Source of the DNA: an uncultured Clostridia bacterium | GTDB taxonomy: Bacteria > Bacillota > Clostridia > Oscillospirales > Ruminococcaceae | Assembly (NCBI GenBank): GCA_946535685.1 | Contig: CAMNDR010000103.1 | Coordinates: forward strand, 1 to 5,186 | DNA: 5,186 nt | Direction of reading: 5' to 3' | Part shown: positions 70 to 5,103 of the stretch, in pieces | Position numbering within the stretch: the stretch's first letter is position 1 | How the letters are laid out: every line of letters begins with the position of its first letter | The notes under the pieces: model-generated | Databases searched by the model: none | Told to the model about the DNA's origin: nothing | The model's input: the letters and a program-made list of their open reading frames with translations, nothing else | Made by a program: the position numbers and the translations under genes

Positions 70-1986
70 TCAGTCCTCCTCTGCGTCCGCACCGGCGATG
101 AGTGCCAGGAACTTCTGCTCCGGCACAGGCATGGAGAAGTAATATCCCTGCAGATAATCCACGCCCAGCGTCCGCAGAAGCTCGATCTGCGCCCGTGTTT
201 CAACGCCCTCCACGAGGATCTCCCGGTGCATCTGCCGGATCATGCGCACGGAATTTTCGAGCAGCACCTGCCCGACCTCATCCTTGCCCGCATTCCACAG
301 CAGTGACTTGTCGATCTTGACCACATCAAAATCGAGCAGATAGATCGCCTTGATATTGGCATATCCGGTACCGTAATCATCCATCGAGAACAGATACCCG
401 TCCTGCTTGAGCGACGAGATCACCGAGCTGAGCAGCTCATAATCCGCCGCAGCCGCAGACTCCGTGATCTCAAAATTGATCAGGTGCTTCCCGATCCCGG
501 ATGCTTCCACGATCTCATTGATACGGCTGACAAAATCCGGCTGCATACAGTGCAGCACTGACAGATTGACATTGATGTTCTCGATCCCGGTTCGTTCAGC
601 GATCCCCGTGGAGAGCAGCCTGCAGACCTCCCGCAGCACCACGCAGTCCAGATCACCGATCACACCGAGCTTTTCGGCCACCGGAATGAACTCATCCGGC
701 AGCAGATCTCCGAGCTGCGGATCTCTCAGCCTGATCAGCGCCTCTGCGCCGTGCAGCGTACCGTCCGCATGATAGGTCGGCTGATAGCAGACGCAATAAT
801 TTCCCTGCTCCAGTCCTCTTGTCACAGCCGCCTCGACCTCCGCACGCCGTAGCAGATAGCCCAGATCCCGCCCTGTGAGCACCTCGCCCTCAGAGCCCTC
901 CGGCACAGGACTGTCCGCCATATACAGCGCCTCCGTCACCGTCCGCACATGCCACGGCACCTCCGCACACAGCACGGTCGCACGCAGCGGCAGCTCACTG
1001 TCCTGCCATTTCCAGGGTCTCCGGAAGCGCCCAGCAATGTCCCCGGCAAGCTCCACCGCATGGAATCCCCTTCGGTCGGGGACAGTCATCATGATGGTCT
1101 CCGGATTGACGACATAGATCAGGTATTGCGGCAGCTTTTCCCGCAAGTAGGGAGCGATCAGCTCCATGACCAACTGGGAATTATCCATGCCGGTCGCCCG
1201 CAGGATGCTCTCGGTATTGGTAATGCGCACCCCGATCAGATGCACCTGCTGCTCCGTCAGAAGTGCGGTATGCAGGTCATTCTGGAACGCAAAGCGGTTG
1301 CCGAACCCGGTCTGTGCATCGGTCCGGTCGTCCTCATTTTCCACAGCGATCATCAGTCCGAGCAATCCGATGGATTCCGCCAGCATTTCGCATTTGATCT
1401 CCTGGTTAACCGCCTGCACCGCCACACCGGCAAACGCCACGCCGAAGAAATACAGCAGCGCCGCCCGCCGCTTGGCAGTCATCGCCCTCCAGCTCCACAT
1501 GAGCAAAATAAACGACAGCAGGAAATAAAAAGCCGCCGCCGCATAGATGCAGTACTCTCCCCAGCGCCGCACGAACATCCTGTTCCGGTCATAGTAATAG
1601 ACCCAGTGCGTCAGCGGATTGAGTGCCGCAGCGGCCTCCGTAAGCAAAAACGGCAGCACAAGGACAAATTTCGCAAACATTCCCGACCTGACAAGTCGCC
1701 CCGTGACCATCGACACATACAGCAGAAGCGTCGGACAGAGCGCTGTATGCAGCAGAAAATAGAGATAATCGCTGGTCTTCACGATCCCGAAGGCATAGTC
1801 AGAGGCCCCGGCCATCGGAACCATATATTCCACCGCAGCCTGTGCTGCAGTATTGCACAGCAGCAGAAGGATCAGCCCGATAAATGCCTTATTCTGCGGT
1901 CTCTGCGTGCGCTGCTGCACCAGTGTGAACAGCAGGAGCGTCACGCAGTTCAGGAAAGCTGCAGCGCAGAATGCAAGTCCGCTCAA
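70..1986 (-). CDS. membrane protein with degenerate GGDEF and intact EAL domain (probable c-di-GMP phosphodiesterase)
   Basis: This 638-residue protein probably hydrolyses cyclic di-GMP to pGpG at the cytoplasmic face of the membrane. Seven hydrophobic segments occupy about residues 2-23, 33-52, 73-96, 103-121, 144-165, 174-195 and 201-216 and form a likely sensor. A GGDEF-like domain follows (about 222-375). It keeps the opening motif D-x-Q-T-G-x-x-N-R (223-231), but the signature position reads N-P-E-T-I (294-298) and the metal-binding D-x-D region is lost, so it should not make c-di-GMP. The EAL domain (about 380-632) has the catalytic set: E415 in EAL, N474, E506 in FEITE, D536-D537 in DDYGTGY, K557, E593 in EGVE and Q613 in QG. 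The start is TTG; an in-frame TGA three codons upstream excludes a longer start, and the next Met is residue 55, past two membrane segments. It is transcribed divergently from the amino acid transport operon and shares a promoter-overlapping dyad with it. The ligand of the membrane domain is unknown. Confidence 0.93.
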   Translation of the reverse strand: MSGLAFCAAAFLNCVTLLLFTLVQQRTQRPQNKAFIGLILLLLCNTAAQAAVEYMVPMAGASDYAFGIVKTSDYLYFLLHTALCPTLLLYVSMVTGRLVRSGMFAKFVLVLPFLLTEAAAALNPLTHWVYYYDRNRMFVRRWGEYCIYAAAAFYFLLSFILLMWSWRAMTAKRRAALLYFFGVAFAGVAVQAVNQEIKCEMLAESIGLLGLMIAVENEDDRTDAQTGFGNRFAFQNDLHTALLTEQQVHLIGVRITNTESILRATGMDNSQLVMELIAPYLREKLPQYLIYVVNPETIMMTVPDRRGFHAVELAGDIAGRFRRPWKWQDSELPLRATVLCAEVPWHVRTVTEALYMADSPVPEGSEGEVLTGRDLGYLLRRAEVEAAVTRGLEQGNYCVCYQPTYHADGTLHGAEALIRLRDPQLGDLLPDEFIPVAEKLGVIGDLDCVVLREVCRLLSTGIAERTGIENINVNLSVLHCMQPDFVSRINEIVEASGIGKHLINFEITESAAAADYELLSSVISSLKQDGYLFSMDDYGTGYANIKAIYLLDFDVVKIDKSLLWNAGKDEVGQVLLENSVRMIRQMHREILVEGVETRAQIELLRTLGVDYLQGYYFSMPVPEQKFLALIAGADAEED

Positions 1987-2452: not shown

Positions 2453-3235
2453 ATGATGAAAAAAACAATCAGCGTACTGACCGCTTCCGTGCTGCTTGCC
2501 CTGAGCCTGAGCGCCTGCAGCAGCGTCCCCGCCAACACCGTCCACAGCGCCGATGACCTCACCGGCAAGACCATTGCCTGTCAGCTCGGCACGACCGGCT
2601 ATATCTTCGCCGGCGACATCGAGGGGGCAACCGTAGAGGGCTATAACAAGGGCGCCGACGCCGTCCAGGCACTCGTGCAGGGCAAGGCGGATGCCGTCAT
2701 CATCGACAGCGAGCCTGCCAAGGTATTCGTCTCCAAGAACAGCTCCCTGACCATCCTCGAAGATCCGTTCGCCGTGGAGGAATACGCCATCGCCTACAAA
2801 AAGGGCAATGACGAGCTCGGCAGCCAGATCGACGAAGCCCTCACCGCCCTCAAGGCAGACGGCACGCTCGATGCCATCACTGCCCACTGGATCGGTGACG
2901 AGGCAGATTATGTCTCCTATACCCCCGATGCATCCGTTTCCCGTGACGGCAAGATCGTCATGGCGACCAACGCCGAGTTCCCGCCCTACGAGAGCAAGGA
3001 GGGCGACCAGATCGTCGGCATCGACGCCGATATGATGCGTGCTGTCTGTGACAAGCTCGGCAAGGAGCTCGTGATCGAGGATATGGCCTTCGATTCCATC
3101 ATCGCCGCCGTGGATTCCGGCAAGGCTGATGTCGGTGTTGCCGGCATGACCGTGACAGAGGAGCGCAAGCAGAACGTCTCCTTCACCCAGGGCTATGCCA
3201 CCACGACCCAGGTCATCATCGTCCGCAAGGACTGA
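2453..3235 (+). CDS. amino acid ABC transporter solute-binding lipoprotein, SBP_bac_3 family, circularly permuted
   Basis: This 260-residue protein should bind a polar amino acid outside the cell and pass it to the permease encoded next door. Residues 1-22 are a lipoprotein signal ending in the lipobox LSAC, with Cys22 lipidated. The family's usual order is reversed. Residues about 30-148 match the normal C-terminal part: SADDLTGK, the GTTG loop (46-49), the IIDSEPA segment with D85, YAIAYKKG, and the closing LKADGTLDAITAHWIG. After a linker (149-166), residues 167-260 match the normal N-terminal part: MATNAEFPPYE (170-180), GIDADM, AGMTVTEER with the carboxylate-binding Arg at R238, and a final strand VIIVRKD. 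The contacts expected for the amino acid's amino and carboxyl groups (D85, T47/T48, R238) are kept, so it is probably functional. The start is ATG with AAAGGAG (2438-2444) 8 nt upstream; a second ATG follows at once. It is first in the operon. The exact ligand cannot be read from the sequence. Confidence 0.96.
   Translation: MMKKTISVLTASVLLALSLSACSSVPANTVHSADDLTGKTIACQLGTTGYIFAGDIEGATVEGYNKGADAVQALVQGKADAVIIDSEPAKVFVSKNSSLTILEDPFAVEEYAIAYKKGNDELGSQIDEALTALKADGTLDAITAHWIGDEADYVSYTPDASVSRDGKIVMATNAEFPPYESKEGDQIVGIDADMMRAVCDKLGKELVIEDMAFDSIIAAVDSGKADVGVAGMTVTEERKQNVSFTQGYATTTQVIIVRKD
2897..2950 (+). other. new linker joining the old C- and N-termini of the permuted binding protein
   Basis: Residues 149-166 (DEADYVSYTPDASVSRDG) lie between the helix that normally ends the family (AHWIG) and the first strand that normally begins it (KIVMATNAEF). 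They are polar and of low complexity, and I see no counterpart in the usual domain, as expected for a loop joining two ends that both lie in lobe 1. Confidence 0.65.
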
Positions 3236-3960: not shown

Positions 3961-4672
3961 GAACTTAGAGAAATGCTTCGGAAGCAATTACATCCTCAAG
4001 GGCATCAGCACCGTCATCGAGAAGGGAGAAAAGGTCGTCATCATCGGCCCGTCCGGCTCCGGCAAGAGCACCTTCCTGCGCTGCCTGAACCGTCTGGAGC
4101 AGCCCACAGCCGGCCGCATCATCTTCGAGGGCAGGGATCTGACCTCCATGAAGGAGCGTGAGCTCTATGCCGTGCGTGAAAAGATGGGCATGGTGTTCCA
4201 GCATTTCCACCTGTTCCCGCATCTGACCATCCGCAAAAATATCACCATCGCACCGGTCAAGCTCGGCCTGATGAACCAGGAGCAGGCTGACCAGAAGGCC
4301 GATGAGCTGCTGAAAAAGGTCGGTCTGTCCGACAAGGCCGAGCAGTACCCCCGCCAGCTCTCCGGCGGCCAGAAGCAAAGAATTGCCATTGCACGCTCTC
4401 TCGCCATGAATCCGGACGTGATCCTGTTCGATGAGCCGACCTCAGCGCTCGACCCGGAAATGGTCGGCGAGGTGCTCAATCTGATGAAGGAGCTCGCCGA
4501 GGAGGGCATGACGATGGTCGTTGTCACGCATGAAATGGGCTTTGCGCGGGAGGTCGCATCCCGGGTGATGTTCATGGACGGCGGCGTGATCGTCGAAGAA
4601 AACGAGCCCGGCGAATTCTTCCGCAACCCGAAAAATCCCCGTCTCCGGGAATTTCTCTCGAAGGTGCTGTGA
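3947..4672 (+). CDS. polar amino acid ABC transporter ATP-binding protein (GlnQ/HisP type)
   Basis: This 241-residue cytoplasmic ATPase would power uptake by dimerising on the EAA loops of the permease. All nucleotide-binding motifs are present and intact: Walker [10 protein letters not shown] (34-42), Q-loop Q85 in VFQHFHLF, signature LSGGQ (138-142), Walker B VILFDEP (158-164) with catalytic E163, D-loop SALD (166-169) and switch H195 in VVTHEMGFA. The Q-loop motif followed by HFHLFPHLT is characteristic of the polar amino acid subfamily. Length is standard and there is no extra regulatory domain. It starts at GTG inside the permease gene, and its stop overlaps the next gene's ATG as TGATG, so all the downstream genes appear translationally coupled. 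Confidence 0.97.
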
Positions 4673-5103
4673 TGGGCTACACAGTACAGATCACAGAGAC
4701 GCTCAGCGAAGGCGCCAGAGCGCTGCGTGCGGGCGTTTTTCTCGATGAACAGGGCTTTTCCGTTGAATTTGATGACATCGACGACCATTGTCTGCATCTG
4801 GCACTCTATGACGGTGATGCAGTGATCGCCGCTGCCCGTGCCTATCCGGACGCAGAGCCCGGCCTCTGGCATATCGGCAGAGTGGTCGTGGACAAAGCGC
4901 ACCGTGGCGAGCATCTCGGCAGCCGCATCATGCAGGAGATGGAAGCGCATCTGCGTACAATCGGCGCAAAACGCACGACTGTTTCAGCGCAGTGCCGTGT
5001 CAGGGCATTTTACGCCTCCCTCGGCTACCGGGCGCAGGGCGAGATCTATATGGATGAATTCTGCCCGCACATCCGCATGGACAAACATCTGGCAGCCACA
5101 TAA
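4672..5103 (+). CDS. GNAT family N-acetyltransferase, ElaA-like
   Basis: This 143-residue protein should transfer an acetyl group from acetyl-CoA to an amine on an unidentified substrate. It resembles the ElaA group: an early V-F-x-x-E-Q (22-27), a D-D-I-D-D stretch (34-38), then GRVVVDKAHRG, where RGEHLG (78-83) is the acetyl-CoA pyrophosphate loop. Next come VSAQCRVRAFYASLGY (104-119), with Y114 a possible general acid, and a late MDEFCPHIRM (127-136). Length is normal for a single GNAT domain. The ATG at 4672 shares its A with the ATPase stop (TGATG) and has an AAGG site (4661-4664) 7 nt upstream. A GTG at 4669 would add one residue but sits too close to that site. Its place in a transport operon suggests it may act on the imported compound or a product of it, but that is inference. 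Confidence 0.9.
   Translation: MGYTVQITETLSEGARALRAGVFLDEQGFSVEFDDIDDHCLHLALYDGDAVIAAARAYPDAEPGLWHIGRVVVDKAHRGEHLGSRIMQEMEAHLRTIGAKRTTVSAQCRVRAFYASLGYRAQGEIYMDEFCPHIRMDKHLAAT

Follow-up and report, generated by a model that had tools for sequence, protein, structure and literature searches.

A conserved natural circular permutation in a predicted SBP_bac_3 amino-acid-binding lipoprotein of Clostridia

The window analysed here is a stretch of 5,186 nucleotides (contig CAMNDR010000103.1 of assembly GCA_946535685.1) from an uncultured, likely gut-dwelling Clostridia bacterium of the family Ruminococcaceae. On its forward strand a continuous reading frame (2453..3235) encodes a predicted amino-acid-binding lipoprotein of 260 residues that belongs to the SBP_bac_3 family (PF00497) but carries the two halves of the family in exchanged positions. 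The swapped order, the single clean cut and the conservation in relatives identify this arrangement, termed CP1, as a real, conserved natural circular permutation. We are confident that the gene is a natural circular permutant whose product is likely to be an ordinary Venus-flytrap amino-acid receptor, feeding the ATP-binding cassette (ABC) permease and ATPase encoded downstream.

At the start of the protein, residues 1-21 (2453..2515) are predicted to be a lipoprotein signal peptide, and the lipobox, L-S-A-C, ends in Cys22 (2516-2518), both read from the sequence. The half that is C-terminal in canonical members follows (residues 28-150, 2534..2902) and aligns with residues 99-224 of GlnH, the numbering being that of mature Escherichia coli GlnH (226 residues). 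A linker of 14 residues (151-164, 2903..2944) then connects what are the C and N termini of canonical members, and the canonical N-terminal half comes last (residues 165-260, 2945..3232), with residues 165-258 corresponding to GlnH 2-95. The half now placed first carries T47, T48 and D85, and the half now placed last carries F176, F213, T233 and R238.

The PF00497 profile matches the window protein with 121.1 bits (curated cut-off 26.4) in two stretches of inverted order. Profile positions 1-93 fall on residues 168-260 and, when the first half of the protein is scanned alone, positions 85-131 fall on residues 88-148, so that the separately matched halves take up complementary parts of the profile in the swapped order that the original prediction had claimed. 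No single collinear PF00497 match over the protein was found, the profile order being other than collinear, and no PF00497 match, hence no displaced canonical half, lies beyond the reading frame in the draft genome (59% complete). The best solved amino-acid-binding protein, 6svf, aligns in the same manner, with its residues 8-105 on residues 164-260 of the query and its residues 113-228 on residues 33-148. Once rotated, the window protein aligns to GlnH residues 2-224 of 226, and the alignment score is 325 with the halves in canonical order compared with 187 for the unrotated protein (200 shuffled sequences gave a mean of 36 and a maximum of 74). There is one clean cut between GlnH 95 and 99, with three GlnH residues between the breakpoints; the positions originally proposed for these agree with the PF00497 matches, the GlnH alignment and the AlphaFold model. 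Thus, the halves are homologous to those of a canonical relative, their order is exchanged, the old termini are joined and the new termini lie at one old loop. Canonical proteins of close kinship exist: one close relative in canonical order (L066) is 69% identical to the window protein over the N-terminal half and 50% over the C-terminal half, and the corresponding ranges for four canonical sisters are 62-69% and 50-59%. These alignments indicate that the window protein is a permuted relative of SBP_bac_3 by descent rather than a canonical member. Across 68 permuted open reading frames (ORFs) the gap between the matched segments is 13-25 residues, and in 62 of these, read from stop to stop, a lipobox-like pattern precedes the first segment.

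The window protein is predicted to adopt a two-lobed type II fold. The AlphaFold2 model, a structure prediction having been proposed as a check, shows the ordinary two-lobed architecture with a predicted local distance difference test (pLDDT) score of 94.5, and the sequence of each half matches those of solved binding proteins. By GlnH mapping the small lobe (GlnH 90-180) contains the cut, which follows closely on the first hinge strand, and because of this position both hinge crossings survive, as had been expected. The lipid-carrying N terminus would exit from the small lobe and not from the large lobe. GlnH G68, T70, R75 and D157, which we take to hold the backbone of the amino acid, align with G231, T233, R238 and D85 of the window protein. 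The ligand residues named in the original prediction also find their counterparts (T47 and T48 at GlnH T118 and G119, D85 and R238 as above), and T47, T48, D85 and R238 are invariant across 59 permuted sequences. Other pocket positions differ from GlnH (D10 is replaced by N173, K115 by Q44 and H156 by I84). With the backbone-holding residues kept, the ligand is likely to be an α-amino acid. No riboswitch naming a ligand was found in the 14 sources scanned, where a T-box far downstream in L049 (8039-8259) was the sole match to reach the gathering score; no NCBIfam equivalog cut-off was reached by the binding protein, permease or ATPase among the matches listed (for the ATPase, the best 25 of 190); and the promoter and terminator scan gave nothing persuasive. 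The window protein would bind an α-amino acid, close and then dock on the permease as its canonical relatives do.

The original prediction had guessed that related gut Clostridia share the permutation, and the same order was indeed found in many relatives, isolates included. Related loci were collected from genome contigs, with the best 80 of 328 retained, and 79 were counted. CP1 order is present in 60 of the 79 (58 single-module loci and two triple arrays), while the other 19 comprise 16 canonical loci, two with a different permutation and one (L054) cut by a contig end. The 58 include a permuted gene of one metagenome-assembled genome (MAG; L014:4986-5774) that an in-frame stop divides in two. 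Among the holders are Ruminococcus bicirculans 80/3, where the gene lies on a complete chromosome (L059), R. flavefaciens 007c, R. callidus ATCC 27760, Lachnobacterium bovis DSM 14045 and Drancourtella massiliensis, together with a Christensenella, three Treponema MAGs and one Fretibacterium MAG (Synergistota). Within the family of the source bacterium, 33 of 197 genomes (that of the window included) have a single match that extends into both halves at an E-value of 1.8e-44 or better, one of these matches containing an internal stop (G181) and another being partial (G026); two other members of the genus gave no match at an E-value of 0.001. In a phylum-wide draw, three of 397 other genomes pass 1e-40. 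Within the phylum, CP1 is therefore frequent in a single family and thinly spread outside it. At the protein level, 113 of 120 clusters among the matches listed have CP1 order. Among these matches the permuted proteins carry ordinary binding-protein names, and the rotation thus seems to pass unnoticed. The ratio of nonsynonymous to synonymous substitution rates (dN/dS, Nei-Gojobori) between the window gene and five relatives is 0.08-0.20, one of the five comparisons being saturated at a dS of 2.2, which fits purifying selection. Four further loci (L106-L109) encode single-domain permuted candidates with 26-34% identity to the window protein and are possibly further permuted lineages; they were left out of the trees.

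The family contains a second permutation. Denoting canonical order as N-a-b and CP1 as a-b-N, the order b-N-a, termed CP2, occurs in 112 of the 120 matches listed for it (P0121-P0240) and in L063:4932-5735 and L065. Its cut lies between about GlnH 166-171 and 183, and like CP1 it places both new ends in the small lobe. The approximate equivalent in the window protein, by comparison with L063 and P0121-P0240, is at residues 93-99 (2729..2749, forward strand), where the chain is uncut. Three rotations of one fold (canonical, CP1 and CP2) thus exist side by side in Clostridia.

Permuted domains also occur in series. Two ORFs, L042:3363-6407 and L045:1333-4434 (1015 and 1034 codons, read from stop to stop), encode three consecutive permuted domains followed by a fused permease; in L042 the link between copies 2 and 3 resembles the canonical N-to-a junction, and a long Pro/Glu-rich stretch parts copies 1 and 2. 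More distant permease-fused arrays have two copies (L102:2-2218, reverse strand) or several (L103:2-3577, reverse strand). All four open with the canonical second half and close with the first half before the permease. In this they differ from GlnPQ SBD1-SBD2 (PDB 6H30), a tandem of PF00497 domains joined to the permease of a polar amino acid transporter, in which the domains are canonical in order. Seven of the 120 matches listed in the CP1 search and eight of the 120 in the CP2 search depart from a simple order of three segments. Segments are added or doubled (as in a-b-N-a-b or b-N-a-b-N) in P0012, P0024, P0034, P0049, P0057, P0062, P0107, P0122, P0127, P0128, P0136, P0138, P0154, P0166 and P0186. 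In P0024, P0034 and P0049, segments 98-100% identical to known permuted proteins stand beside a different half, and 14 of the 15 mixed-order proteins are on no contig longer than 6.3 kb. The mixed-order proteins are either recombination intermediates or chimeric assemblies. The one-and-a-half-domain proteins were considered as captured intermediates and set aside as evidence of mechanism, since the near-identical segments and short contigs allow chimeras.

Downstream of the CP1 gene the window encodes an ABC permease of the polar amino acid type (PF00528, 3259..3960) and a GlnQ/TcyN-like ABC ATPase (PF00005, 3947..4672), both on the forward strand and assigned by profile match. Binding protein, permease and ATPase are hence encoded together, which is the gene set expected for a polar amino acid ABC transporter (PAAT). 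Among the 58 single-module permuted ORFs, a permease and an ATPase lie downstream of 41 and a permease is fused at the permuted C terminus in six; five have less than 1500 bases of contig left and six lack both genes. The ATPase end is overlapped by a GNAT acetyltransferase gene (4669..5103, forward strand, profile match), and a relative lies within 2500 bases downstream of 17 of the 58 single-module permuted ORFs and downstream of none of the 17 canonical ORFs counted. The window also encodes a divergently transcribed EAL-domain protein of 638 residues (70-1986, reverse strand), of which Pfam covers residues 387-620 only.

Three other explanations of the permuted gene were weighed. The order could be an artefact of assembly or binning, or the gene could be a frame-shifted pseudogene that only seems permuted; the window does come from a fragmented draft (292 contigs, 59% complete), and the relative L014 is broken by an in-frame stop. 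However, continuous frames of the same order are found in isolates, one complete chromosome (L059) included, which makes an assembly rearrangement very unlikely, and the agreement among 113 of the 120 listed protein clusters and the low dN/dS also speak against this explanation. We consider that this explanation can hardly be correct. A protein that folds but no longer serves transport, acting instead as a sensor or storage lipoprotein, would account for the six single-module loci that have room for a permease and an ATPase yet show neither nearby. It is difficult to reconcile with the 41 loci that have both genes downstream, the six permease fusions and the arrangement in the window itself, where permease and ATPase directly follow, and it is highly improbable.

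The explanation that deserves most attention is that the single CP1 protein broke out of a GlnP-like multi-domain array, its halves then deriving from different paralogues. Fused arrays in CP1 register do exist, copies 2 and 3 of L042 are connected by a short link that resembles a canonical junction, and the trees of the two halves split L049, with its N half beside the canonical L075, L076 and L073 and its other half beside the L042 and L045 arrays. On the other hand, when the halves were tested apart, single permuted proteins were the nearest rows to the window protein for both. Copies 2 and 3 of L042 and L045 form one clade (100/99), as fits a unit that was duplicated late, when it was already permuted. 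In L042 the Pro/Glu-rich stretch that separates copies 1 and 2 suggests that the permuted unit is the module. An array break-out is thus unlikely, although it should be taken seriously, and a natural circular permutation of a single-domain receptor remains the preferred reading.

It is plausible that CP1 originated by tandem duplication and trimming: a canonical gene would be duplicated in frame and both ends of the product then trimmed. In-frame tandem arrays holding both registers exist (L042 and L045), and as such arrays contain every rotation, trimming of their ends would give any of them. CP2 is likely to have arisen separately; CP1 and CP2 as one clade are rejected (p = 0.005). The tree used had 89 rows out of 333 rotated rows (44 of 187 CP1, 15 of 114 CP2 and 30 of 32 canonical); L096 and L099 were dropped by name, as was copy 1 of both L042 and L045. 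The best tree needs five changes of order, and CP1 forms one group in none of 200 bootstrap trees. A single CP1 origin gives p = 0.05, or p = 0.415 without five outgroup and nine divergent rows (Treponema, Christensenella and Synergistota among them), and a single CP2 origin is not rejected (p = 0.275). A monophyletic canonical ingroup is rejected (p = 0.02), as would be expected if CP2 arose inside it. One canonical-order protein (L074:2129-2947) groups inside the CP2 clade, in a fork of five supported at 97/87, and may be a reversal to canonical order. Taken together, the 89-row tree and L074 suggest repeated switching of order, while single origins of CP1 and of CP2 are not rejected.

The new C terminus coincides with a site of change in another protein family. 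A match to the ionotropic glutamate receptor (iGluR) S1 profile, PF10613, ends at profile position 113 of 115, which is residue 259 at the new C terminus. This is presumably where the pore helices of iGluR are inserted, and if so one site would tolerate both changes. The receptor is an ion channel and the window protein is not, and the link is a match at threshold (cut-off 30), scoring 28.5 bits with the whole protein and 30.6 with only the half.

Circular permutants are already known from other binding-protein families. Circular-permutation relationships among the glycine-betaine-binding proteins 2B4L (OpuAC), 1R9L and 1SW1 (ProX) were found by CPSARST (PMC2395249). As excerpted, that work concerns another family and ligand, its partners share less than 24% identity, compared with the much closer canonical sisters described above, and no second rotation is described there, unlike CP1 and CP2 in PF00497. 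Treponema pallidum has a natural circular permutant in TpMglB-2 (Tp0684), for which a 'Type Ic / Cluster Bc' was proposed; relatives of this protein were placed in treponemes and Gram-positive, often gut, bacteria, and the permuted form was considered a possible adaptation to membrane anchoring (PMC4990184, in excerpt). The window protein is likewise a permuted, tethered ABC binding protein in the same kinds of hosts. According to the same excerpt, however, TpMglB-2 has a type I sugar-binding fold, a poorly conserved permuted part and a fourth hinge crossing (PMC4990184), whereas CP1 belongs to an amino-acid family, has close canonical sisters and by GlnH mapping has no extra crossing. The sequence matches of the window protein are to PF00497 and amino-acid-binding proteins, TpMglB-2 being compared by description. 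No report of a permuted PF00497 protein was found in open-access full texts, most subscription papers being outside the scope, in line with the initial impression that the permutation is undescribed in this family; the excerpts of PMC2861598, PMC9815098, PMC2912341 and PMC9732360 add nothing on it. To these known cases CP1 and CP2 add an amino-acid family, close canonical sisters, two separate cut sites and permease-fused arrays.

SBP_bac_3 was found in 12 of 14 well-known control genomes. Biosensor design and ancestral reconstruction routinely use the family as a scaffold, and the three rotations and their canonical sisters provide matched natural pairs for probing termini, tether position and folding order in a hinge protein. 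As CP1 and TpMglB-2 occur in the same kinds of hosts, the idea that tethering drives permutation, as outlined in the excerpt of PMC4990184, becomes testable. Amino-acid uptake, a role in transport and any gain from the moved anchor are inferred for the window protein. We tentatively propose, as a possibility rather than a probability, that gut Clostridia possess all three rotations as a natural set, switched repeatedly through in-frame tandem arrays containing every register; selection would then have shifted the tether from the large lobe to the small one at least twice, and rotation would re-plumb the hold of a lipid-anchored receptor over its transporter.
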